A stretch of 64,000 nucleotides of DNA from Neoarius graeffei (Eukaryota; Chordata; Actinopteri; Siluriformes; Ariidae): NCBI RefSeq assembly GCF_027579695.1, contig NC_083586.1, positions 6,382,001 to 6,446,000 of the forward strand, written 5' to 3'. The first letter of the stretch is position 1. Every line of letters starts with the position of its first letter. Shown one piece after another: positions 7,298-63,366 of this stretch. The position numbers and the translations under genes are program-made. Below the pieces are notes generated by a model. It did no database searches and was not told the origin of the DNA. It saw only the letters and a list, made by a program, of their open reading frames with translations.

Positions 7298-7607
7298 TGT
7301 GTGGCAGCGGGGGCATGGTCAAGCACCGGTCTGTGACAGGAGGGCGGAGTAAGGGAAGGTAAGTGGCAGAATCACTACACCTGACGGCAATTAACCTGTG
7401 TTTGTCTGTGTCTTCCCAGTGACCGCGCCCTATTTAAGGAGGGAGAGCGAGAGCAGAGGATCTCATCCCCGAACCAGACGCCGGTTGTGTGTGTCTGTTT
7501 GATTAAGCTATTGTTCGCTGAAAAGCGTGGCAATAAAAGCCCCTGTGTACAAACCTGTTCTCTGTCCTGCCGTCCTCTGTGCTCCACCCTACGTTAGAAC
7601 TGTTACA
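7298..7607 (+). repeat. left LTR of the Gypsy fossil
   Basis: Begins TGTG(TG)GCAGCGGGGG and ends GAACTGTTACA, the TG...CA form of an LTR. It contains a TATTTAAGG TATA-like box near 7430 and an AATAAA signal near 7532. Confidence 0.8.
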
Positions 7608-7608
7608 G

Positions 7609-7626
7609 TGGTGCCGAAACCCGGGA
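7609..7626 (+). other. primer-binding site matching tRNA-Phe
   Basis: TGGTGCCGAAACCCGGGA directly follows the left LTR. It is the exact complement of the 3' 18 nt of vertebrate tRNA-Phe including CCA, as recalled from the tRNA-Phe sequence. Confidence 0.75.
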
Positions 7627-7652
7627 AAGTGGAGCACCAGCTGAGCAGCCCC

Positions 7653-8972
7653 ATGGAGTCCTCCCCGTTCACCGACCTGGTCCACGCCCTCGCCACGGCC
7701 CAGCAAAGCCAGCATCAGGCGCTCGTCACCCCCTGGAAGGAGCAAGAGCGACGCTTCAAGGCCCTGGTGCTGGCCCAACAAGAAGATCGAGAGGCGTTCC
7801 AGCACCTCCTCGCGTCGGCAGGGTCCACCAGCGCTCCTACCGCGGGCCTGTCTCCCCTCACCGTCACCAAGATGTGCCCGCAGGACGACCCCGAGGCGTT
7901 CATCACACTCTTTGAGGAAGTCGCCGAAGCCTCGGGGTGGCCGATGGAGCAGCACGCGGCGCGCCTCCTCCCCCTGCTAACGGGAGAGGCACAGCTGGCC
8001 GCGCTACAGCTCCCCGCCAACCGCTGGCTGGCCTGCGCGTCCCTCCGCCGGGCCATCCTCCAGCACATGGGGCACACCCCAGAACAGCAGTGCCAGCGCT
8101 TCTGCGCGTTGCGCTTGGAGGAAGTCGGCCGGCTGTTCGCGTTTGGCCAGCTGCTCCGGGATGCCTACTGGCGGTGGTTGATGGCCGACAACCACGACGC
8201 CGAGGGAATCATCGACCAGGTGGTGCTGGAACAGTTCATCGCTCGCTTGCCAGCAGGAACCGCTGAGTGGGTCCAGTGCCACCGCCCGGCATCGCTGGAT
8301 CGGGCAGTCGAGCTGGCGGAGGACTATTTAGCGGCTGTCCTGGCGGCAGGACAGCAGATGGCATCTTCTCTTCTCTCCTCTTCTCTCTCTCTCTCTCCCC
8401 CTCCTCCTGTGTCCCGTCCTCGCCCCATTCCCCCACCGCAGAGGCGGGGGCCGGCGCCTCCCCAGCCGGCCCACCGCACCCGCGGTGCCCTCCCGTTTCT
8501 CCCTTCTGTGTCCGTCTCTCCCCCACCTCAGGTGAGTGAGCCCCAGAACACCGGTGCAGAGGGAAAGCCCGGGCCGGTCTGCTGGCGCTGCAGGGAGCCA
8601 GGCCACCTTCAACAGCAGTGCACAGCGATGGAAGTGGGTGCGGTGGTTCGGATCCCCGACACGCCAGAGGCCGCCCTCGATCGGGCCGGAGCATATCGCA
8701 TACCAGTGAGTATCCAAGGGGATACATATCAGGCATTGGTGGAGTCTGGTTGTAACCAGACCTCAATTCACCAAAGCCTGGTTCAAAACGAGGCATTGGG
8801 GGGAGCACAGGGGGTGAAGGTGTTGTGTGTGCACAGGGACGTTCACAGCTACCCTTTGGTGTCGGTCCACATTTTTTTCCGAGGGGAAAAATTTATAGTG
8901 AAGGCGGCGGTTAATCCTCGCTTTACCCACTCTGTAATTTTGGGGACGGATTGGCCGGGATTTCGGGATTGA
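7653..8972 (+). pseudogene. gag and protease-like region of the Gypsy fossil
   Basis: The frame reads a SCAN-like gag (DDPEAFITLFEEVAEASGWP, LLPLLTGEAQLAAL, LDRAVELAEDYL). A serine/proline-rich stretch follows, then a zinc knuckle CWRCREPGHLQQQC. A protease-like part comes next (GDTYQALVESGCNQTSIH, HSVILGTDWPGF). This order is typical of teleost Ty3/Gypsy elements. The part belongs to a broken fossil. Confidence 0.85.
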
Positions 8973-21717: not shown

Positions 21718-21902
21718 CACGACATGCTCAAGGGCACTTCAGCCCAACACCACCCCATGTTAAATGTCTTTGAGCTGTGGGGTTAACCAGAGGTGACACA
21801 GGCAGAACACGCAAACTCCACACAGAAAGGCCCCCGCCAGCCGCAAACCCAGAACCTTCTTGCTGTGAGGCGACAGTGTGAACCACTCCATCCCCCTGCT
21901 GC
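21718..21902 (-). mobile_element. SINE fragment next to tRNA-Asp
   Basis: Minus-strand pieces of the tRNA-headed SINE are visible (ACGCAAACTCCACACAGAAA, AACCTTCTTGCTGTGAGGCG). The copy is diverged and incomplete. A shorter version of the same junction sits at 36243-36270. Confidence 0.7.
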
Positions 21903-21925
21903 ACAAGTTAATACATTTTTAAAGT

Positions 21926-21997
21926 CTCCCTATCAGAGAATCGAACCCCGGTCTTCCGCGTGACAGGCGGAGATACTGTCCACTATACTAACGAGGA
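21926..21997 (-). tRNA. tRNA-Asp (anticodon GTC)
   Basis: The reverse strand reads TCCTCGTTAGTATAGTGG, anticodon arm CCGCC-TGTCACG-CGG and T arm CGGGG-TTCGATT. The acceptor 3' strand (ATAGGGAG) and part of the T stem have mismatches, so activity is doubtful. It opens the first Asp/U5/U2 block. Confidence 0.75.
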
Positions 21998-22196
21998 TGA
22001 CGCAACAACTCTCATTTATCAATAAAAAATGTGGTATGGAAAGCACTTACTGCTGGGGTCAACAGCGTTCCTGTCAATAATCAAACTCCAGCTGATGTTT
22101 TCATATTTAATTTATAGGCTATATCCGTGATATTGGACAGATCACACAGCACTCAACTGTTCCTTTTCAAAATTCAACACCCCCCCATCCCGCTTG

Positions 22197-22240
22197 CTTA
22201 TCTATCTATCTATCGATCGATCGATCTATCGATCTTTCTT
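22197..22240. repeat. tetranucleotide microsatellite (TATC/GATC)
   Basis: A run of TATC and GATC units recurs in the second block at about 36564-36600. Confidence 0.8.
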
Positions 22241-22323
22241 TCAAAAAAGCTCATTCGTCAGACATTTCTCTGCCTGTGTGCAATGGCTAATAAAGCTGTA
22301 AAGGTGTAAGAGATTGGCCCAGG

Positions 22324-22340
22324 CCACCTTACCCTATACC
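22324..22340 (+). promoter_or_regulatory. snRNA proximal sequence element candidate, first U5
   Basis: CCACCTTACCCTATACC lies about 51-67 bp before the U5 start. It resembles the vertebrate PSE (TCACCNTNACT-like). It is conserved at 36668-36690 and 59257-59280. Confidence 0.55.
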
Positions 22341-22390
22341 AGCTTTCTGCACCTCCAATCCAGTGTCACTAACCTGATCCAGTGTAAAGT

Positions 22391-22508
22391 ACAGCTCAGG
22401 TTTCTCTTCATTGACGCATAAGTCTTTCGCCTTTTGCTAAAGATTGCTGGAGAGAAATGTTAATGAGTTCAATATATTTTTGTAGGCTTTGCTCTAGCAG
22501 AGCTGAAC
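22391..22508 (+). ncRNA. U5 snRNA gene, copy 1
   Basis: U5 is the snRNA that holds the exon ends in the spliceosome. This 118-nt match shows the 5' stem (GGTTTCTCTTCA pairing with GGAGAGAAA), the conserved loop 1 context CTTTCGCCTTTTGCTAAAG, an Sm-like site AATATATTTTTG and the 3' hairpin GCTCT-AGC-AGAGC. The invariant loop sequence is GCCTTTTAC; here the A is G, so this copy may be a variant or a pseudogene. A 3'-box-like AACAAATGTTAGA follows at about 22519. Confidence 0.8.
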
Positions 22509-22692
22509 ATTTTTAGTCAACAAATGTTAGAACAGTTGATTTTTTTGCAGAGAAGTATCTCCCACACGCCTCAAAAGGCGATGTTTCTCTTCAAAAGGAT
22601 CCAGCTGTTGGGGGCGGAGTCTAGGTGTGTTTACCTTTCTGGATTTTAATATGTAGAAGTGGTATATTTAAAGCCATTAGCTGCAGTAAGTT

Positions 22693-22880
22693 ATCATTTC
22701 TCCACATTTTGTTTAGAATTAAGTGTGGTATTTATTGTACTCAATTTAATATCTGATTTGTTCTCTGAAACGAGAGCGTAATATTAAGCAGATTTTTTTT
22801 TAGAACAACGAGCTGGGGTAGGAATTTGTTCTTTCAGCTCCATATACTAACCTGATGTTGTCGTACTTCTATCTTCGTTC
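22693..22880 (+). ncRNA. U2 snRNA-like copy 1 (diverged)
   Basis: Aligned with U2 it keeps CAATTTAATATCTGATTTGT and CAGCTCCATA...AACCTGATG, but the branch-site recognition GTGTAGTA is GTGTGGTA and many positions have changed. It sits 185 bp downstream of U5 copy 1. It is probably a pseudogene. Confidence 0.7.
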
Positions 22881-23134
22881 TAGAATTTTTTTTTCTTATT
22901 TAACACACTCTTTAAACGAAGCTGATAAATAGGTTATTTTGTAGAGTAAAGAATAAAAATAAGAATTTGTTTCTTTTATTTAATACTCTCATATGGTATT
23001 ATAGATTTAGGAATGGTTACCTTATTTTAAAAAAGAAAGAAAAAATATTTATTTTGCCTGCCCTAACTTTTTCCCTATTTTCTGGTTTTCTCCATGCTCA
23101 ACAAGACAGGTGTAGAATTGGGTGTGGGCGGTGT

Positions 23135-23195
23135 GGGAGAGAAATGTTAACGAGTTGAACGTATTTTTGTAGGCTTTGCTCTGGCAGAGCTGAAC
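23135..23195 (+). ncRNA. U5 snRNA 3' half, copy 1b
   Basis: The copy resumes at GGGAGAGAAATG and continues through GTATTTTTGTAGGCTTTGC to the hairpin GCTCTGGCAGAGC. The 5' half including loop 1 is missing. It begins the second tandem U5-U2 unit inside block 1. Confidence 0.75.
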
Positions 23196-23380
23196 ATTTT
23201 TGGTTATCAAGTGTTAGAACTATTGATCTTTTTGGATGGAAGCATCGCCACATACACTCTACAAGGAAATGTCTCTCTTCAAAAGGATCCAGCTGTTGGG
23301 GGCGGAGTCTAGCTGTGTTTACCTTTCTGGATTTTAATATGTAGAAGTGGTATATTTAAAATCATTGACAGTAGTAAATT

Positions 23381-23532
23381 ATTGTTTTTCGGACTTTTGG
23401 TTAAGTTTAAGCGTGGTGTTTATTCTTATCAATTTACTATCTGATCTATTCTGTAAATGAAAACGTGAGAACAGGGACCTGGACTAGGGGTTTGCTCCTA
23501 TCAACCTCATATTGTAGTATCTTCAGAAATAA
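23381..23532 (+). ncRNA. U2 snRNA-like copy 1b (diverged)
   Basis: Keeps TCAATTTACTATCTGATC, GACCTGGACTAGGGGTTTGC and CCTCATATTGTAGTATCTTC in U2 order. The branch-site region reads GCGTGGTG, so it is a pseudogene. Confidence 0.65.
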
Positions 23533-24265
23533 TGCTTTTGCTCAAAAAAGGATTTTTTTAAATTCTTGTTTGACACTCTTTAAGTGAAGTTGATAAATGT
23601 TTTTTTTTTCTAGAGTAGAGTTAAAATAAGAATTTGGTTCTTTTATTCTATACGCTCATGTGGTATTATAGTAGATTTAAGAATAGTTACCTTATTTAAA
23701 AAAAAAAGAAAGAAAAAATTCTTTATTTTGCCTGCTTTAACTTTTTCCCTATTTTCTGGTTTTCTCCATGCTCAACAACACAGGTGTAGAATTGGGTGTG
23801 GGCGGTATGGGCGTGTCCCTACCAATATTTCTGATTGAAGAGAAAAAATCCCACCCCGTGCGCGGTACACAAAGGGTTACTGTAGGTTTCCACTGGGCGA
23901 AACACCACGCCCAATTCGCTCATGAATATTCACTCTGGGGGCGTGGTCGCGGTGTCAATTAGCAAGTGCGGTTGCAGTGATGATGATGATGATAGTTTAT
24001 TTCAAACATGTAAACAAACAATGAATAAATAAGCAGATAACAAGAAAAACAAAACAGCATTTGCAACAAGAACACGTAAAAAGCCACTAAATTAGAAAAT
24101 AAACCTTAAATAATATAGGGAATAATAATATATCAAAATCAAAACAAAAGAAAACAAGACAAAAATACAAAAATACATTCCATGTCTGAAAAGGAGTGGG
24201 CTGAAGTAAAAACTTATTTAATCCCACCCTCTACTTTAGTCAATATAAATTGATTATCGAGCTTC

Positions 24266-36242: not shown

Positions 36243-36290
36243 AACAACCACTCCATCCCCCTGCTGCCCAAGTTAATAAACTTTTAAAGC

Positions 36291-36362
36291 CTCCCCTTCA
36301 GGGAATCGGACCCAGGTCTTCCGCGTGACAGGCGGAGATACTATCCACTATACTAACAAGGA
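36291..36362 (-). pseudogene. tRNA-Asp (anticodon GTC), block 2 copy
   Basis: Same position and sequence context as 21926-21997. The anticodon loop TGTCACG is kept, but TCCTTGTTAG and the T arm TGGGT-CCGATT carry changes that weaken acceptor and T stems. It is likely a pseudogene. Confidence 0.7.
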
Positions 36363-36667
36363 TGACGCAATAACCCTCACTTATCGATAAAAAATGTGGT
36401 ATGGCAAGCACTTACTGCTGTGGTCAACAGCGTTCCTGTCAATAATCAAACTCCAGCTGATGTTTTCATATTTAATTTATAGGCCTACATCCGTGATATT
36501 GGACAGATCACACAGCACTCAACTGTTGCTTTTCAAAATTCAACACCCCCCACCCCACTTGCTTATCTATCTATCGATCAATCGATCGATCTATCTATCT
36601 TTCAAAAAAGCTCGTTGGTCAGACATTTCTCTGCCTGTGTGCAATGGCTAATAAAGCTGTAAAGGTG

Positions 36668-36690
36668 TAAGAGATTGGCCCAGGCCACCT
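36668..36690 (+). promoter_or_regulatory. snRNA proximal sequence element candidate, block 2
   Basis: The CCACCTTACCCTATACC motif is kept here but is separated from the U5 body by the hAT insertion. Confidence 0.5.
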
Positions 36691-36763
36691 TACCCTATAC
36701 CAGCTTTCTGCACCTCCAATACAGTGTCACTAACCTGATCCAGTGTTAAGTGTAGCTCAGGTT

Positions 36764-37954
36764 CAGTGGCGGCTCCTGAATTTTTTTTCAGGGGGGGGCA
36801 ATTTTCCCCCGTTATGTCTACACGGACCATAAATGTCCACAGGACTGAAGTAAATTGACCTAGTTAGCAAGAGTGGATCTTTAGATCTTGCAATTACTGG
36901 TATTTACCAAGGATATTACCAAAGTGCTAACTCTCAGAGCAAAGTGTGGCAAATATAAAAATGCACATTGAAAACATCAACAGTGAACTGATTCTGTGAC
37001 TGTGTGTGAGTGTGTGTCACGAAGTCAACCAAACCCAGAAAAACACCACGGTGTCTTTGCCTCATAGAGTTAACTCGAACACTCCACAAAATTTCACGCA
37101 TTGGATGAGCCGGTTTAATATGTGCCTGTTCTTGTTCACCTCATCGTTGTGGTGGCGAACTGCTAGCCTGTAGCCCTCATCCAGTTGTGCAGCGATGTTC
37201 ACTCTCCCAAAAGCCGAAAATTTCAGGCAGCTGCCCATGTGAATCTTTGATGACTCATGTTTTTTTATTTTCTCCGACAAATGATGCATGTCCGAAACTC
37301 CAGTGACCGTCCAAGCAGTGTTGTCCGTGGAGCCACCTCCAGGGTGGAAAAGTAAGCAGGGGGAGCAGAAAACCACTGAGGCGTCCTCGCAGCCAGCTCG
37401 CCAGGATTTGCGCTGGGACCATGTTGAAGTAAAACCTCAAGTATACGATTTCCCCCCCCCTTTGTCGAAATTTGTTTTATGTTTAGATTTGGTCGAGGGG
37501 GGTCCAGCTTGTTTTGTTGCCAATTTAGCTCGATTTGATCACTGACTAAATGGAACTTCTTTTAAGGACCGCACTGAATTGCTTTCCACATCCGTCTCAC
37601 CTCAGAAACTGAGCAGATCGAACGCAACTTTGCTGCACTTTGCAGTGACATAAGCACGTTAGGGCACGCCCCCCCGGAACCCATAGAGATTGCATTGAAG
37701 TGTCAGTTAGGAGAAAAAAAATATATTAACATGGGACTCTATCAGTGAACTCTTGGGCGATTTTCAACGTGACTGAAATCGCCCCAAAAGGGGCGGTACT
37801 CTAGAAGCAAGAGCACGCTGATTGGACAATGATACCCAGAGACAGATTAAATCGGCCTAGAGCAGCGCTGGTGAAAGTTTGTTTAAAAAAAAAAACTTTT
37901 TTTTTCATTTTGGCAGTGCGTCGCCCAATCGCCCTTATGCACCAGCTGCCCTTG
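36764..37954 (-). mobile_element. hAT element inserted into U5 snRNA
   Basis: The left end is CAGTGGCGGCTCCTG and the right end, on the reverse strand, CAAGGGCAGCTGGTG. The 8-bp flanks CTCAGGTT (36756-36763) and CTCAGATT (37955-37962) are a near-perfect target-site duplication. Internal deletions leave only part of a transposase. Confidence 0.85.
37062..37376 (-). pseudogene. hAT transposase fragment with TTF-type zinc finger (ZMYM1-like group)
   Basis: The frame reads MVFCSPCLLF, then HHLSEKIKKHESSKIH, the TTF-type zinc finger, and HHNDEVNKNRHILNRLI followed by VKFCGVFELTL. This is the N-terminal part of fish hAT transposases annotated as zinc finger MYM-type protein 1-like. Upstream frames (to about 37440) and the catalytic core are lost. 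Confidence 0.75.
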
Positions 37955-38070
37955 CTCAGATTTCTCTTCATTGACACATAAATATTTCGCCTTTTACTAA
38001 AGATTTCGGTGGAGAGAAATGCTAATGAGTTCAACATATTTTTGTAGGCTTTGCTCTGGCGGAGCTGAAC
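37955..38070 (+). ncRNA. U5 snRNA, copy 2, body 3' of the hAT insertion
   Basis: Reads CTCAGATTTCTCTTCATTG, loop 1 with TTCGCCTTTTACTAAAG, GGAGAGAAATGC, the Sm-like ACATATTTTTG and hairpin GCTCTGGCGGAGC. The invariant loop GCCTTTTAC is intact, unlike copy 1. Because the hAT duplicated its target, the body keeps all but the first few bases, yet its PSE lies 1.2 kb away. It is probably silent. Confidence 0.82.
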
Positions 38071-38234: not shown

Positions 38235-38431
38235 ATCATTTTTCTGCATTTTGACTAGGATCAAGTGTAGTATCTATTCTAATCAATTTAATATCTGATT
38301 TGTTCTCTAAACGAGAGTGTTATATCCAGCAGGGTTTTTTTTTTTTTAGAACAAGTAACTGGGATAGGAGTTTACTCTTTCAGCTCCATATGCCAACCTG
38401 ATGTTGCAGTACCTCTATCTTTGTTCTAGGA
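38235..38431 (+). ncRNA. U2 snRNA-like copy 2
   Basis: Best-kept U2 5' half in the window: GATCAAGTGTAGTATCTATT contains the branch-point recognition GTAGTA, followed by AATCAATTTAATATCTGAT. The Sm region is a long T run and the 3' half reads GGGATAGGAGTTTACTC, AACCTGATGTTGCAGTACCTC. An upstream TTTACCTTTCTGG (about 38176) may be its PSE. The 5' end TTTTTCTGCATTTTGACTA is changed, so it is a variant or pseudogene. Confidence 0.78.
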
Positions 38432-38870
38432 AAAAAAAATTTTCTTATTTGACACACTCTTTAACTGAAGTTGATAAATGTTTTTTTTAGAGTAGAGAAT
38501 AAAAATAGGAATTTGGTCCTTTTATTCTATACTCTCATATGGTATTATAGTAGATTTAGGAATGGTTCCCTTATTTTAAAAAAGAAAGAAAAAAAATCTT
38601 TATTTTGCCTGCCCTAACTTTTTCCCTATTTTCTGGTTTTCTCCATGCTCAACAACACAGGTGTAGAATTGGGTGTGGGCGTGTCCCTACCAATATTTCT
38701 GTTTGAAGAAAAAAAATCCTGCCCCGTGCGCGGTACACAAAGGGTTACTGTAGGTTTCCACTGGGCGAAACACCACGCCCAATTCGCTCATGAAAATTCA
38801 CTCTGGGGGCGTGGTCGCGAAAACAGCAAGCACTTTTGGTGACCGTGTCAATTAGCAAGTGCGGTTGCAG

Positions 38871-54067: not shown

Positions 54068-54221
54068 AAAACATAGCTGTAGAATTGTTTTCAGCACCAA
54101 ATTACCAGCATATACTGACATTGCCCAGGCAAAAATAAACAAACACAGCCTTGCGACGTGGCTTTGTGAAAGTAAGTGCTGCAAATGTTTTTTTTTGTCT
54201 CACATGACTCGTGGCCCCTCT

Positions 54222-54305
54222 GTTAGTCATGGCCGAGTGGTGAAGGCGATGGATTTGAAGTCCATTGGGGCTTCCTTGCACAAGGTTCAAATCTTGCTGG
54301 CTATG
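54222..54305 (+). tRNA. tRNA-Ser (anticodon TGA), worn
   Basis: TAGTCATGGCCGAGTGG, anticodon arm ATGGA-TTTGAAG-TCCAT and a long variable arm GGGGCTTCC identify tRNA-Ser(TGA). Extra bases in the acceptor 5' side and near the T stem suggest decay. It is divergent from tRNA-Gln, 155 bp away. Confidence 0.7.
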
Positions 54306-55875
54306 TGCGGTGTGACGTTTGAGGCCCGTTGAGTGCTACCCGTATTGGTCTGGCTGGTGGTGGATTGGTTTCGCCTGGGCCCCTGTGCTCTTGGTGTGAA
54401 GCAGGGCAGTGGTCTTCTTTTGATCATTGCACATAGGTATTTGAGCAGTGACCCAAGTACATTGCCAACTCACGTGGTCAGCACAAGACCTGCGTGCGGT
54501 CAACGACGCATCTCGCTTTGGTGTCTAGCCAAGCGGACTACGGAGCAGTGTTTGGCTAGTGGTATCCAGTGGAGAAGCATTCTTCTATCTTGATCCTGAG
54601 GTCTGTTAAGTCCTGCTTACTGATGTTCGGGATGGTGTACTGATACCACGCCAAAATGCAGTTTTGCATCTTAAGGTACTGAAACAGATGCCTTGATGAT
54701 TCCCTACGCAATTCAGCATGCTTACGAGTAAGTTTGAGATTCTCTTTGCCATACAATGAGTGAAAACTGGTAATTGCAGTCCATTGTAGGGTTTCATTTT
54801 ACAGCACTGGATTTATTTAGCAGCGCTGCCCTTAGACAGTTGTACATCCAGTGAATCAACTAGGCTAGGTCGTAGACTCATTCACGTCCAACCTGAGGAT
54901 TTTGCCTCCCTGAAGCGTATGCGTTTTGAAACGAAGTGCAGCGAAGCATCTCCTGACATTGGTCCACGCTGTCACGAGGCCCCGTGTGCAGTCATCGCCA
55001 CCTGGTTAAAGTGATGTCCTTGATGTCCACTCGACGTCTCCCATGCTGCTTTGAATGTGCTGCCGACTCCATCTGAAATTGGGTTTGCCGATAGGCAGCC
55101 GAAGCCTTGGTTTGTGGTGGCTTTTACCCGAGCTTGTCTGGCAAAAGAGGGAGCGGTTCCAAATCCAGGTATCTGTCCTCAACGGAAAGGGCTTCTCTCC
55201 CTGACAGGTCGAGTCAAAGCACTGTCGTAAAACGTTTGCAGAAAAGTCCGTCTTTTCTGCAAACTTGTAAAAGCACTGCCCAGAGTATTGCAATAGTTAG
55301 CCTAGCGCATGACCCACACGTGAGAGATAACTGCATGCCGTGTCCATTCATTTTATATAGAAATTATGCTTTTAGATGCACGATCACGTCGCACCTGTTT
55401 CAGTGGACAAAAAGGCAACGACAAGATTCAGGTCGGCGGTGCTGCATGCGTGACGTCATTTGCGCCAGTGCCTTCTTTTGTTTCCACACGGACTCTACAG
55501 TATACTCCTCTCTGTAGTGGCGTGCGTTCTTGATACTGAGTCTTTTGAAAAAAAAAACATGAAAGCTCTAAAAAATTCGTCCTCAATCTTTGGTTAGTTG
55601 TCTGAGGATGATTTAGAACCTATAGCCACAGAGAAAGAGGCGGACGAATACACAAGCCAAGTCATTCATGAAAAAGAAGAGCAACAACTGCACCAGCTGT
55701 TTTCTGGAACCCTGGAAGTTAATACATGGTACAAATCATAGTTTGCATGGTTTTTATTTTATTTTTTATTATTTTTTAAATACTGATTTGGTGTTCAGCC
55801 TTCACAGTTATAAAGCAGTGTCTCTTTGTAATTGTCATCTTTGTAAGCTCACTTGCTCAGCAGAAGGCTCAATAA
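54306..55875. other. long spacer without recognised gene
   Basis: About 1.6 kb of mostly unique-looking sequence. A short plus frame near 55600-55690 (SEDDLEPIATEKEADEY) is acidic and resembles the start of a piggyBac-type or other nuclear protein, but this is too weak to call. Minus frames near 54556-54797 and 55006-55293 have no recognised domain. Confidence 0.35.
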
Positions 55876-56437: not shown

Positions 56438-56785
56438 ACTCTCACTTTACAGTGCTGGAGCTGCAGGAGCAGGTGGCGTAAAACGTATTGATTGTATTAT
56501 ATCTAGTTTTCAATATGATATTATTTTTCCAATATGTTTTTTTTGTTTTGTTTTGTTTTCTTCTCTCAGCAATGGTGAAATCGAATTTGTAAATAAAATC
56601 ACTGCCCTGACTCTACTCATCAGGCCACAGCTATTCTCTTTCTGTGTATGTTTTGTACAACATAAGGAAACAGTATAGTAACTATAATGGTAAAGAAATA
56701 AAGCAAAAGAGGCTGGCTATGATATAAGAAAATTCTACAACCCAGAAACAGATGGAGCTCTGCTTTTAGGCAGTGCCTCAATCTA
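56438..56785. other. spacer; right part is an inverted copy of 48765-48865
   Basis: No gene. Positions 56680-56784 mirror 48765-48865. Confidence 0.5.
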
Positions 56786-56964
56786 CAGTGGTGCTTGAAA
56801 GTTTGTGAACCCTTTAGAGTTTTCTATATTTCTGCATAAATGTGACCAAAAACATCATCAGATTTTCACACAAGTCCTAAAAGTAGGTAAAGAGAACCCA
56901 GTTAAACAAATGAGACAAAGATATTATACTTGGTCATTTATTTATTGAGGAAAATGATCCAATA

Positions 56965-58115
56965 TTACGTATCTGTGGGTGGCAAAAGTATGTGAACCTT
57001 TGCTTTCGGTATCTGGTGTGACCCCCTTGTGCAGCAATAACTACAACTAAATGTTTTCCGGTAACTGTTGATCAGTCCTGCACACCATCTTGGAGGAATT
57101 TTAGCCCATTCCTCCATACAGAACAGCTTCAACTCTGGGATGTTGGTGGGTTTCCTCACATGAACTGCTCACTTCAGGTCCTTCCACAACATTTTGATTG
57201 GATTAAGGTCAGGACTTTGACTTAGCCGTTCCAAAACATTAATTTTATTCTTCTTTAACCATTCTTTGGTATGTGGCAGTAAATAGTCACTAAAGGCCAA
57301 TTTATGCTGACAACCCAGTCCTCGCAGACGGTGTCGCAGACAGTGTCTGCGTAGCCCCCCCACCTTCGCAGACTTGTGTGCTTAGGGTCGTTGTCTTGCT
57401 GCATGACCCACCTTCTCTTGAGATTCAGTTCATGGACAGATGTCCTGACATTTTCCTTTAGAATTCACTGGTATAATTCAGAATTCATTGTTCCATCAAT
57501 GAAGGCAAGCCATCCTGGCCCAGATGCAGCAAAACAGGCCCAAACCATGATACTACCACCACCATGTTTCACAGATGGGATAGGGTTCTTATGCTGGAAT
57601 GCAGTGTTTTCCTTTCTCCAAACATAATGCTTCTCATTTAAACCAAAAAGTTCTATTTTGGTCTCATCCATCCACAAAACATTTTTCCAATAGCCTTCTG
57701 GCTTGTCCACGTGATCTTTAGCAAACTGCAGACGAGCAGCAATGTTCTTTTTGGAGAGCAGTGGCTTTCTCCTTGCAACCCTGCCATGTACACCATTGTT
57801 GTTCAGTGTTCTCCTAATGGTGGACTCATAAACATTAACATTAGCCAATGTGAGAGAGGCCTTCAGTTACTTAGAAGTTACCCTGGGGTCCTTTGTGACC
57901 TTGCCGACTATTACACTCCTTGCTCTTGGAGTGATCTTTGTTGGTCGACCACTCCTGGGGAGGGTAACAATGGTCTTGAATTTCCTCCATTTGTACACAA
58001 TTTGTCTGACTGTGGATTGGTGGAGTCCAAACTCTTTAGAGATGTTTTTTTAACCTTTTCCAGCCTGATGAACATCAACAACGCTTTTTCTGAGGTCCTC
58101 AGAAATCTCCTTTGT
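56965..58115 (-). pseudogene. Tc1 transposase pseudogene, copy 3
   Basis: The frame 57465-57848 reads ESTIRRTLNNNGVHGRVARR, WMDETKIELFGLNEKHYVWR and GGGSIMVWACFAASGPGW. Frames further left give [17 protein letters not shown] and RKPTNIPELKLFCMEEW. The initiator ATG and first helix-turn-helix (about 58020-58125) are altered. The inserted 100 bp replaces the PKHTSRS region, so the protein is inactive. The final acidic residue is Lys, as in copy 2. Confidence 0.9.
57274..57373 (+). repeat. 100-bp exact copy of 55876-55975 inside Tc1
   Basis: Every base from TGGCAGTAAATAGTCACT to CACCTTCGCAGAC equals 55876-55975. This includes 18 bp of flank outside the Harbinger MITE. It replaces about nine bases of the Tc1 sequence. 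Confidence 0.95.
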
Positions 58116-58497
58116 TTATACCATGATACACTTCCACAAACATGTGTTGTGAAGATCAGACTTTGATAGATCCCTGTTCTTTAAATAAAACAGGGTGCCC
58201 ACTCACACCTGATTGTCATCCCATTGATTGAAAACACCTGACTCTAATTTCACCTTCAAATTAACTGCTAATCCTAGAGGTTCACATACTTTTGCCACTC
58301 ACAGATATGTAATATTGGATCATTTTCCTCAATAAATAAATGACCAAGTATAATATTTTTGTCTTATTTGTTTAACTGGGTTCTCTTTATCTACTTTTAG
58401 GACTTGTGTGAAAATCTGATGATGTTTTAGGTCATATTTATGCAGAAATATAGAAAATTCTAAAGGGTTCACAAACTTTCAAGCACCACTGTATATA

Positions 58498-58570
58498 TTA
58501 AAGATTTCCGGGGAGAGGAATGTTAATGAGTTCAGCTTATTTTTGCAGGCTTTGCTCTGGTAGAGCTGCA
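58498..58570 (+). ncRNA. U5 snRNA 3' half, block 3
   Basis: Starts inside loop 1 at TAAAGATTTCCGGGGAGAGG, directly right of the Tc1, and continues to the Sm-like CTTATTTTTGC and hairpin GCTCTGGTAGAGC. The 5' half is missing and is not found left of the Tc1. Confidence 0.75.
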
Positions 58571-58756: not shown

Positions 58757-58925
58757 AGGAGGTTCTCAGTCTTTTGGACAAAATCAAGTGTAGTATCTAT
58801 TTTTTTTTATCTGTTTAATATCTGGTATTTTGTCTGATTCTTATATTAAACAGCTTTTTGGGACAGGGAGTTAGAATAAGGGCTTGCTCTCTGCATCAAC
58901 CTGGTATTGTAATACCTTCAGGATT
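58757..58925 (+). ncRNA. U2 snRNA-like copy 3
   Basis: Keeps AAATCAAGTGTAGTATCTAT with the branch-point recognition GTAGTA, TTTAATATCTGGTA, a good Sm region CAGCTTTTTGGGACAGGG, and the best 3' half in the window (AATAAGGGCTTGCTC, CATCAACCTGGTATTGTAAT). The first bases (TTCTCAGTCTTTTGGAC) are near U2. T-run expansion in the middle argues for a pseudogene. Confidence 0.78.
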
Positions 58926-59194
58926 TTTTTTTTTTAATAAAAAAATGATGGAAGCTTTTGTTAATATGTGTTAATTGAGTGTTTGGTAGGTGTTCTGAAT
59001 GATGATGATATATCAAATTGATTTTTTTAGACCAGGTAGTTAAACAGGGGCTTGTTTCTTCTGTTTCATACATCAAAATGGTATTCTAATTAGTTCTAGG
59101 AATTATGACCTTGTTAAAAAAAAAAAAGAAAAAAAATTCTGTTTTTCTTTCTTTGCTCAGCTTACCTTTTCCCCATTTCCTGGTTTTCTCTATG

Positions 59195-61246: not shown

Positions 61247-62837
61247 TAAACATTAGTAGTTGTTAAATGCAGTCAATAAACTCATATGGTGTTTGTTTTT
61301 AACCAAAATCTAATGAGTGTTTAAAATAATATATAGTACCATCAGGAAGCATTTCATATGTAATGTGGTAATGAATTAATGAAGCTATTTTATGTTTTGG
61401 GGCATTTCTTTTATTCCAAGTGTGTTTTTTACTTAAATGAACAAATGTTCACACGAAATATTGAGCAAATAATAAGCTAAATAATGAGATAAATGTGTTC
61501 TCTGTGCTTGCTCATTTCACTGTTACCCCCCAATCATGCAGTCTTGATTATTTCACTGTTATCCACAGTGTCAAGGAGGTAATGATCTCCCTTATAAGGG
61601 AGAGAGAGAGAGGGGTTGATCTGTGTGTAGTGTGGATCTAAGGAGGCTGAATTGACCTCTTATACAAACACAATGTGAGATGTGCAGGAGAGATGGCATG
61701 AGGTTGTCGCAGTGCAGGATGAGGAGAAAGCTGTGCACTGGTGTCGGCTCTACTCTCCCGTTTGCTGCCCTGTGTTTGAACAGAAGCTGTTTTTAAGCAG
61801 TGGCATTGTGTGAAATGTAGCTCACCTACTGTACCTAATATGAAACAAATTATCCTCGCCCTCATCATGGCCAGAGGATGCATATGTAACATATTTAATC
61901 ATTAAAATTAATTGTGCATAATAATAAAGTCAACACGATATCAAGATATGCATGAAGGGCTGAGAGAAAAAAAAACAACAACATTAAGTTTAGATGAGAA
62001 TTCAGTGAGTGCTTGCAGAGAGCTCTTTATTTGCTGTCTGAGCTCAGCATGAGACGGATGAACGAGGCTGGGATGAGAATGGATTGAGTTCATAGAGAGA
62101 GCTCTCAGATTTCTCTGCTTGAGATCAACAAGAGGCGCTAAAGTTGAAAAAATCTGAGAATTATTTTAGACCTTAATGAAATTTCCTTTGAAACTTAGAA
62201 TCTAATTTGAGATTTTGTGCATCTTTTTGCTCTGGAGAAAAAAAAAGATAGAGATGAGAAATAAGCCATAGTCTCATTTTGGTTTCACACAGACCTCATA
62301 GTTGTTTTAGAGAAAGAAAAGGAAACATATTTGAGAGCTCTTTTCTAATTTTCTTTTCCTCTGGGCCTTTTCTATTCAATAAGGCCTTGTGTTTATTGAA
62401 CTTGATTGCTTGTTAGCTGTGAGCTTGTGCTGCCAGTTCTTCTTCTTCAGACCTCTGAGGAACAATCAATAGGAGGAACAGACAGCTGCCTGAGAAAGCT
62501 GACTGCTAACATCAGTGTACTGGATCAAGTGCTATTTTATAATCTGTTAAATAATGAGGGTGGAAACCATCGTGTTGAATTATGAATCAGAATCCTAAAC
62601 TATTTCTTCATATTAAGGTCTCTGAACATTGTGTTACATCATAGGAAGTGTAACATTTTAAAAGTTTGTTTTCCATTGATTGCTCAAAGAAAGCATTACC
62701 AAAGATGATGGCTGTAGATATTCAAAGCAAATAAATATCAAACTTTGGGAACAAAGACAGAAAACTGTATTTGAATGAAACAGGTAAACAGCTCTCCCTC
62801 CTGAGAGGAAAAAAAAACAAAAAAAAAAACAGTCTGC
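61247..62837. other. long spacer left of the V pseudogene
   Basis: About 1.6 kb, AT-rich, with no supported gene. An 84-codon minus frame at 61638-61892 has no recognised domain. Confidence 0.35.
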
Positions 62838-62877
62838 ACTTTTTGTACAGTGTGTTTTTGAGTTTTGTGTCCCTGTG
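62838..62877 (-). other. V(D)J recombination signal candidate, long-spacer type
   Basis: Directly after the V end on the minus strand: heptamer CACAGGG (62871-62877; consensus CACAGTG), a 24-bp spacer, and nonamer ACAAAAAGT (62838-62846; consensus ACAAAAACC). This is the 23-bp-type signal expected 3' of TCR alpha V genes. Confidence 0.65.
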
Positions 62878-63366
62878 GGCTCCATGGCGCAGTAGTACAG
62901 TGCAGAGTCTGATACTGCAGCAGGAAAGATCTCCACATCTACTTTCTTTTCCTTTTTATGAAGTCTGATAGACAGTCTTGGGTCAGGTTGTTGAGCTCTA
63001 GTGACAATTTCTGTGGATTCTCTAATCATCAGAAGAAACTCTGGTCTTGATTGAGGCTTTTGTCAATACCACTGGAGATATCTAGCCGAGTCATCATATG
63101 TGCAGGTCTGTGGTTTTGCTGCCCTCAGCTGAAGATATAATGGTTTGGTTGGGTGTGATGCTGCTGTCAACAGCACCTGCAATAAAGACATTGCAACAAC
63201 ATCAACATTTCTATTTTCATTATTTAATGATTTTTTTAAGCCAACTACAGTAAATCATCATGTTTTGGTGTCAGTACAAAATCTCCAGGATCCACCTAAA
63301 GCTTGTGTATAATATAAATAACTTACCAAAGATTTTAACAACTATGAAAACAAAGAAGAGTAACAT
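62878..63366 (-). pseudogene. T-cell receptor alpha V-like pseudogene (TRAV type), two exons
   Basis: The leader exon (63327-63366) reads ATG then MLLFFVFIVVKIF and ends at a GTAAGT donor. After a 150-bp intron, exon 2 (62878-63176) follows TTTATTGCAG. It encodes VDSSITPNQTIISSAEGSK, a first-Cys region TCTYDDSARYLQWY, QKPQSRPEFLLMIRES, and DVEIFPAAVSDSALYYCAME. Conserved Cys, Trp and YYC are visible. Two faults break it: a two-base loss near 63106, before the first Cys, and a stop (TGA for the Arg of WYRQ) at 63063-63065, probably a CpG change. An isolated TRAV segment or a remnant near the TRA/TRD locus fits best. A TRDV gene is also possible. Confidence 0.85.

Follow-up and report, generated by a model that had tools for sequence, protein, structure and literature searches.

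Relic U5-U2 snRNA cassettes in Neoarius graeffei and the probable complementary decay of their linked genes

The excerpts of published work cited here describe linkage of the U2 and U5 small nuclear RNA (snRNA) genes as apparently common in fishes in which this gene family has been studied (PMC3464664). In Plectorhinchus mediterraneus the U5-to-U2 spacer is 168-178 bp, and the same source names the linkage in Moronidae, Engraulidae and Oreochromis niloticus and, together with U1, in Soleidae (PMC3464664). U2-U5 synteny is given for Ancistrus (PMC10532334); the excerpt on the toadfish Halobatrachus didactylus states that the linkage was not found (PMC3544641). Zebrafish Chr4R Region-2 is described as a block of snRNA and transfer RNA (tRNA) genes with maternal 5S, U1 and U6 (PMC11075544). 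Here we analyze a 64,000-nucleotide stretch of the catfish Neoarius graeffei (C18:6382001-6446000, NC_083586.1; hereafter the window, numbered from its first letter) with three U5-U2 copies. A first-pass annotation had called the tandem U5-U2 arrangement next to tRNA-Asp unusual; the linkage itself is not, according to PMC3464664, and the window feature consists of decayed members of a known linkage type, and the sole new point is a reciprocal split between units that keep U5 and units that keep U2. We consider it probable that the three copies belong to a large U5-U2 cassette family split by complementary decay. Among the titles and abstract openings listed by searches of one open-licence library, none named reciprocal decay of such a cassette.

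Three damaged copies in the window

We searched the window with Infernal against Rfam 15 at the gathering score (cut-offs of 40 bits for U5, RF00020, and 46 bits for U2, RF00004), ran a laxer scan to E<=1, and ran BLAST with two queries from this genome, a cluster U5 and a U2 that is intact. The elements of the three copies are as follows.

Copy 1
21926-21997, minus strand: tRNA-Asp (GTC), head-to-head with U5 and part of the repeated unit (ARAGORN; Rfam 43.8 bits)
22328-22349, plus strand: PSE-like element of U5 copy 1, CTTACCCTATACCAGCTTTCTG, about 63 bp before U5
22392-22504, plus strand: U5 copy 1, damaged (Infernal 22393-22504; Rfam U5 61.1 bits)
22597-22616, plus strand: G-rich conserved stretch GGATCCAGCTGTTGGGGGCG, upstream of the U2 PSE (sequence comparison)
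22630-22649, plus strand: PSE-like element of U2 copy 1 (closely similar elements before 39 of 46 high-scoring U2 copies)
22663-22673, plus strand: TATA-like TATATTTAAAG after the U2 PSE (sequence)
22693-22852, plus strand: U2-like relic (U2v) copy 1 (Rfam U2 47.5 bits; 73% identity with an intact U2 of this genome)
23136-23191, plus strand: U5 3' half, partial second pair (BLAST only, 91% over U5 nt 60-115)
23386-23530, plus strand: second U2-like relic of copy 1 (BLAST only, 67%)

Copy 2
36291-36362, minus strand: tRNA-Asp (GTC) (ARAGORN)
36764-37954, no strand: insertion of about 1.19 kb after U5 nt 11 (sequence comparison with copy 1)
37952-38066, plus strand: U5 copy 2, with a nearly complete body and a displaced promoter (Rfam U5 72.9 bits)
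38235-38434, plus strand: U2-like relic (Rfam U2 79.1 bits)

Copy 3
56781-58496, no strand: Tc1/mariner-like element, abutting U5 at a TA of loop I (terminal inverted repeats)
58496-58567, plus strand: U5 copy 3, 3' part only, nt 44-115 (BLAST only, 90%)
58758-58929, plus strand: U2-like relic (Rfam U2 54.4 bits)
58994-59115, plus strand: further U2-like piece (BLAST)

We take the PSE-like elements to be proximal sequence elements (PSEs) from their position and from their likeness to vertebrate PSEs. Significant plus-strand Infernal matches (E-values 6e-14 to 2e-6 over 64 kb) cover U5 copies 1 and 2 and all three U2 copies, five of the elements given in the first-pass annotation; no further U5 or U2 was found in the window by Infernal, even at E<=1. 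The proposed U5-then-U2 order on the plus strand is borne out at 22.4-22.9, 37.95-38.4 and 58.5-58.9 kb, with the 58.5-kb U5 seen by BLAST only. The PSE-like motif predicted ahead of U5 is present, the GGATCCAGCTGTTGGGGGCG stretch said to be common to both pairs of copy 1 occurs at 22597-22616 and 23285-23304, and the repeating unit of linked U5, U2 and tRNA-Asp is supported and proves to be dispersed across the genome. The first pair is linked as described, its gap measuring 188 bp rather than 185 bp, and the partial second pair is recovered by BLAST and gives no Infernal match at E<=1.

The term genes is too strong for the window, because its U2 copies score low (47.5-79.1 bits, against 154.6-187.3 bits for the good U2 copies of the genome) and its U5 copies are mutated, cut off from their promoter or truncated; none combines an intact loop I, an intact stem and an adjacent promoter. 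U5 and U2 on the same strand, about 170-190 bp apart and each preceded by a PSE, occur in copy 1 only, as copy 2 has no adjacent U5 PSE and copy 3 no U5 5' part. In the alignment U5 copy 1 shows an A-to-G change in loop I and a small stem deletion, with its PSE retained. In copy 2 the insertion after U5 nt 11 left the U5 PSE behind and displaced the promoter; the sequence before it (36246-36763) is 93% identical to 21881-22402, and the U2 at 38235 has broken pairs in stem I. This insertion is bordered by 8-bp near-repeats (CTCAGGTT/CTCAGATT) and, without a database match, appears hAT-like from its ends. A Dada transposon was considered and rejected, the 8-bp near-repeats differing from the 6-7 bp given for Dada in the excerpt of PMC8869645. 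The C17 copy L010 has upstream sequence resembling that of copy 2. The element in copy 3 has inverted repeats (56781-56999 and 58278-58496) that are 96% identical, and its 57905-58258 is 97% identical to 34968-34615, within a frame matching a Tc3-type transposase (Pfam).

That the window holds working U5 and U2 genes in a repeat, as the first-pass annotation had it, agrees with five elements scoring above the Rfam gathering score and is nonetheless very improbable, given the U2 scores and the damage in all three U5 copies. Repeats are difficult to assemble, and an assembly artefact would be a further explanation; with copies 1 and 2 alike at 85% across the cassette and each window copy carrying its own damage, we regard it as barely conceivable.

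Two classes of unit across the genome

The search was extended to the whole genome (2.34 Gb, 38 contigs), for which family and similarity counts are lower bounds from the matches listed. A 651-base query across copy 2 gave 62 matches, 40 of them scored, so that the cassette occurs at 40 places at least: 33 on C1 (18.35-30.75 Mb), five on C18 (6.14-6.42 Mb, including the query) and two on C17. This list undercounts, because window copies 1 and 3 are absent from it. The U5 family search scored at least 47 places, 29 of them on C1 and all 29 on the minus strand, and lower-scoring plus-strand copies are also present. The U2 search scored at least 46 matches (154.6-187.3 bits) and the U1 search at least 42, with 17 in the C1 18-31 Mb block and one at C18:6157196; 14 of these 17 and the C18 match lie 1.9-5.0 kb from a U5, one U5 end in these distances being a DNA match without an Infernal score.

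Copies were fetched for 43 of the 47 listed U5 matches (three on C13 and one on C24 were left out). Eight of them are C3, C12 and C28 copies with no U2 match nearby. The other 35 comprise 28 that lead a same-strand pair and seven that were excluded: L046, L073, L085 and L075, where U2 is convergent, L080 with a cut-off partial U2, and L081 and L090 with no U2 match. Adding 15 pairs found only through the window or the similarity search gives 43 same-strand U5-led pairs. In these the U5 scores 61.1-87.2 bits (median 79.6) and the first downstream U2 47.5-89.8 bits (median 63.6); a second U2-like copy, present in some units, scores 58.5-78.5 bits.

On the U2 side we examined 46 copies (45 of the 46 listed matches, C1:29273823 being left out, plus one from L050). 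The cluster PSE precedes 39 of them, and the seven without it, including L059, all lie outside the C1 18-31 Mb block. In the upstream stretch fetched (328-480 bases), a U5 relic with identity of up to about 87% precedes 12 of the 39 PSE-bearing copies; seven of these relics reach detection by Infernal (38.2-53.5 bits). The remaining 27 copies have no U5 there, bar a 14-base chance match in five. L117 and L118 have U2 at 149.2 and 156.3 bits and no U5 match. A head-to-tail unit with both genes good was not found among the copies sampled, nor in the window.

We propose that the ancestral cassette had the usual teleost form, in which a spacer of about 190 bp that contains the U2 promoter lies between U5 and a downstream U2. 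Amplification of this cassette together with tRNA and U1 genes would have produced an interspersed array at C1 18-31 Mb and in blocks on C18 and C17, and units would afterwards have lost one gene or the other. In type A units U5 would have been kept and U2 decayed, the window copies being decayed type A; in type B units U2 would have been kept, with U5 a relic or absent. As U5 and U2 RNAs act in trans, the loss of one gene per unit would cost little while other units supply it. Relaxed selection may thus be the cause of the decay, and the surviving genes would be transcribed, as we infer together with the ancestry from sequence comparison.

The arrangement of neighbouring genes is preserved in part. 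Reading in contig direction, L049/L050 hold U2 (+), U5 (+), U2 (-) with a degenerate U5 (-) upstream of it, tRNA-Ser and tRNA-Leu (-), U2-like (-), U5 (-) and tRNA-Asp (+). A tRNA lies head-to-head with U5 at 16 of the 20 loci L009-L028; it is Asp-GTC at 14 of them, carries the anticodon ATC at one and was read as Asn-GTT at another. No such tRNA was found in the fetched stretch of L009, L010, L026 or L028; L009 is window copy 2, whose insertion pushed the tRNA out of that stretch. The U5 PSE-like element is kept in many of the U5 copies displayed and is missing in L011, L014, L036, L010, window copy 2 and others. Most intact and decayed U2 copies displayed have a PSE near -63 and a TATA-like TTTATTTAAAG or TATATTTAAAG near -29. 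A reading of U2 as transcribed by RNA polymerase III, based on the TATA-like element, was rejected because this element also precedes the high-scoring U2 copies. The internal run of five T in U2 is a further argument against such transcription. Linkage to 5S was rejected as well, none of the 47 scored 5S matches being on C1.

Outside the block, the U5 copies of C3, C12 and C28 score higher (84.9-95.2 bits), with five in 4.3 kb on C28; their internal loop and 3' stem set them apart from the U5 of the block. In the loop I stem of the L043 U5, both partners of a T-A pair are changed, giving G-C. We also observed a U1 array at C1:71.6-73.75 Mb with one high-scoring U2 (L059), which is without the block's PSE.

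Rates of change and the case for complementary decay

Rates were calculated as Fitch parsimony steps per column on FastTree trees, with columns treated as independent and p-values uncorrected. L046 was dropped from the rate set, as no same-strand U2 lies behind its U5. For the 29 remaining type A units the rates are 0.58 for U5, 0.95 for the U5 promoter, 0.83 for the spacer, 0.41 for the U2 promoter, 1.60 and 1.40 for the two halves of U2v, and 1.76 for the 3' flank. U5 is slower than U2v (p = 3e-8), which changes 2.4-2.8 times as fast per column. With L046 included (30 rows) the values are U5 0.67, U5 promoter 1.00, spacer 1.08, U2 promoter 0.90, U2v halves 2.08 and 1.87, and 3' flank 2.14 (U2v versus flank, p = 0.03). 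With L010 and two window copies also removed (26 units) they are U5 0.43, U5 promoter 0.28, spacer 0.66, U2 promoter 0.37, U2v halves 1.43 and 1.21, and 3' flank 1.67. Among 39 U2 copies the promoter changes at 0.56, the U2 halves at 0.97 and 1.47, and the flank at 2.98. Pairwise divergence in the C1 subset is 2.6% for U5, 2.8% for the U2 promoter, 11-13% for U2v and 10.5% for the flank. U5 is thus conserved in type A units and U2 in type B units. U2v is far faster than U5 and, by the parsimony count, somewhat slower than its flank.

No cassette with both genes intact was found under two exact patterns. The pattern joining the U5 loop and stem, the U2 PSE and the U2 5' end in register has no match in 2.34 Gb. 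The PSE and U2 5' end without U5 match 40 times in the genome, and the half with the U5 loop and the PSE matches in 31 of 119 fetched sources (some overlapping).

Several observations weigh against complementary decay as we propose it. Some concern the patterns, which tolerate no mismatch and so bound only well-kept cassettes of usual spacing, and the absence of both-intact units, which rests on matches listed as lower bounds. Six of the 40 matches to the PSE and U2 5' end are truncated U2 copies (C1 95-99.5 Mb). Loosening the pattern by a longer spacing and the removal of one base yields five cassettes in which a U5-like loop is combined with a good U2 5' end; all five show the relic U5 stem change TTTTACTAAAC, and the two scored as U5 (L001 and L100) reach 53 bits. 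A relaxed both-gene pattern matches six of the 119 fetched sources, of which L001, L008, L064 and L100 have a relic U5, L074 has U5 at 81 and U2 at 69 bits, and L116 is intermediate for both genes (U5 58.7, U2 126.5 bits). Further, eight loci (L046, L049, L050, L054, L060, L061, L073 and L085) hold a U5 (60.0-82.9 bits) and a U2 (130.3-178.3 bits) tail to tail, so that a good U5 and a good U2 can be close neighbours when convergent; in a ninth, L075, the U2 is poor.

L116, the many decayed copies and counts drawn from listed matches only would also fit plain birth-and-death, a process described for snRNA families in the excerpt of PMC3464664. The unit types would then be the ends of a decay continuum with no complementary pattern, and both-intact cassettes would have been missed. 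We think this unlikely, since none of the 43 U5-led pairs has a U2 above 89.8 bits against 154.6-187.3 bits in the 46 listed U2 matches, exact both-intact matches number zero, and the looser pattern recovers only relic-type U5 loops.

The remaining counterpoints concern the decayed U2. U2v is slower than its flank (p = 0.005 for 29 units, 0.001 for 26) and for this reason is not drifting wholly free. The type A U2 promoter is conserved to the same degree as U5, which would not be expected if U2 were dead. Gene conversion among copies could mimic constraint. These rates raise the alternative that the conserved promoter of the type A U2-like sequence still drives its transcription, yielding a variant U2 or a shorter RNA derived from U2. 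The promoter is among the slowest parts of the unit, with PSE and TATA-like element in place; GTGTAGTATC is retained in some U2v copies, and the second U2-like copies of 13 loci have a better stem I, though without a PSE. On the other side are the pace of U2v relative to U5, the broken stem I pairs in the three U2v copies with alignments shown, and U2v scores that are all below 90 bits, which together make continued transcription of this kind quite improbable.

Complementary decay can be extended in a more speculative direction, which we regard as doubtful. Degeneration would be complementary genome-wide, and the U5-only and U2-only descendants, with their own promoter types, would form a second, possibly oocyte-specific, set of spliceosomal RNAs beside the C3, C12 and C28 U5. 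The conserved promoter before the decayed U2 would retain a function, such as helping to form the U5 3' end or giving rise to a U2-derived RNA.

The reciprocal split suggests that a gene linkage conserved in fishes can persist after one of the two genes has lost its function, and would provide a natural case of trans-acting RNA genes decaying complementarily within a repeated cassette. Rfam matches just above the cut-off in such arrays may be relics.

We also noted features beside the cassettes. At C1:95.36-99.55 Mb (L110-L115), six U2 5' ends, with about the first 63-67 nt kept, stand behind the cluster U2 promoter; unrelated sequence follows, and no U5 match was found in the fetched flanks. 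Within the window, 54192-55326 holds a tRNA-Ser whose sequence and flank match the tRNA-Ser/tRNA-Leu part of L049, a further relic of the array. A 489-codon frame at 7503-8972 (+) matches a SCAN domain (62 bits) and is probably of mobile-element origin, and a frame at 62658-63062 (-) has a V-set immunoglobulin match under the Pfam cut-off (24.2 versus 26 bits).

Comparison with known linked and clustered snRNA genes

The closest described arrangement is that of Plectorhinchus mediterraneus, which shares with window copy 1 the order of U5 before U2, a similar spacer (168-178 versus 188 bp) and a PSE for each gene. As far as the excerpted source goes, both genes are present in its clones, at a nucleotide variability of 0.007 for U2 and 0.009 for U5, whereas in Neoarius graeffei the linked pairs sampled have one of the two genes decayed, and the units are scattered across megabases among tRNA and U1 genes. 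Ancistrus likewise has U2 and U5 linked and differs in that the excerpt of PMC10532334 mentions no decayed partner. Like the C1 block, the zebrafish Chr4R region is, as excerpted, a block on the megabase scale with many snRNA and tRNA genes, and more snRNA genes lie elsewhere in the genome. The two differ in content, as maternal 5S, U1 and U6 are named for zebrafish and U1, U2, U5 and tRNA are seen in the C1 block, with none of the 47 listed 5S matches lying on C1. If the C1 block is in fact oocyte-expressed, the zebrafish idea of maternal snRNAs would extend to U2 and U5.

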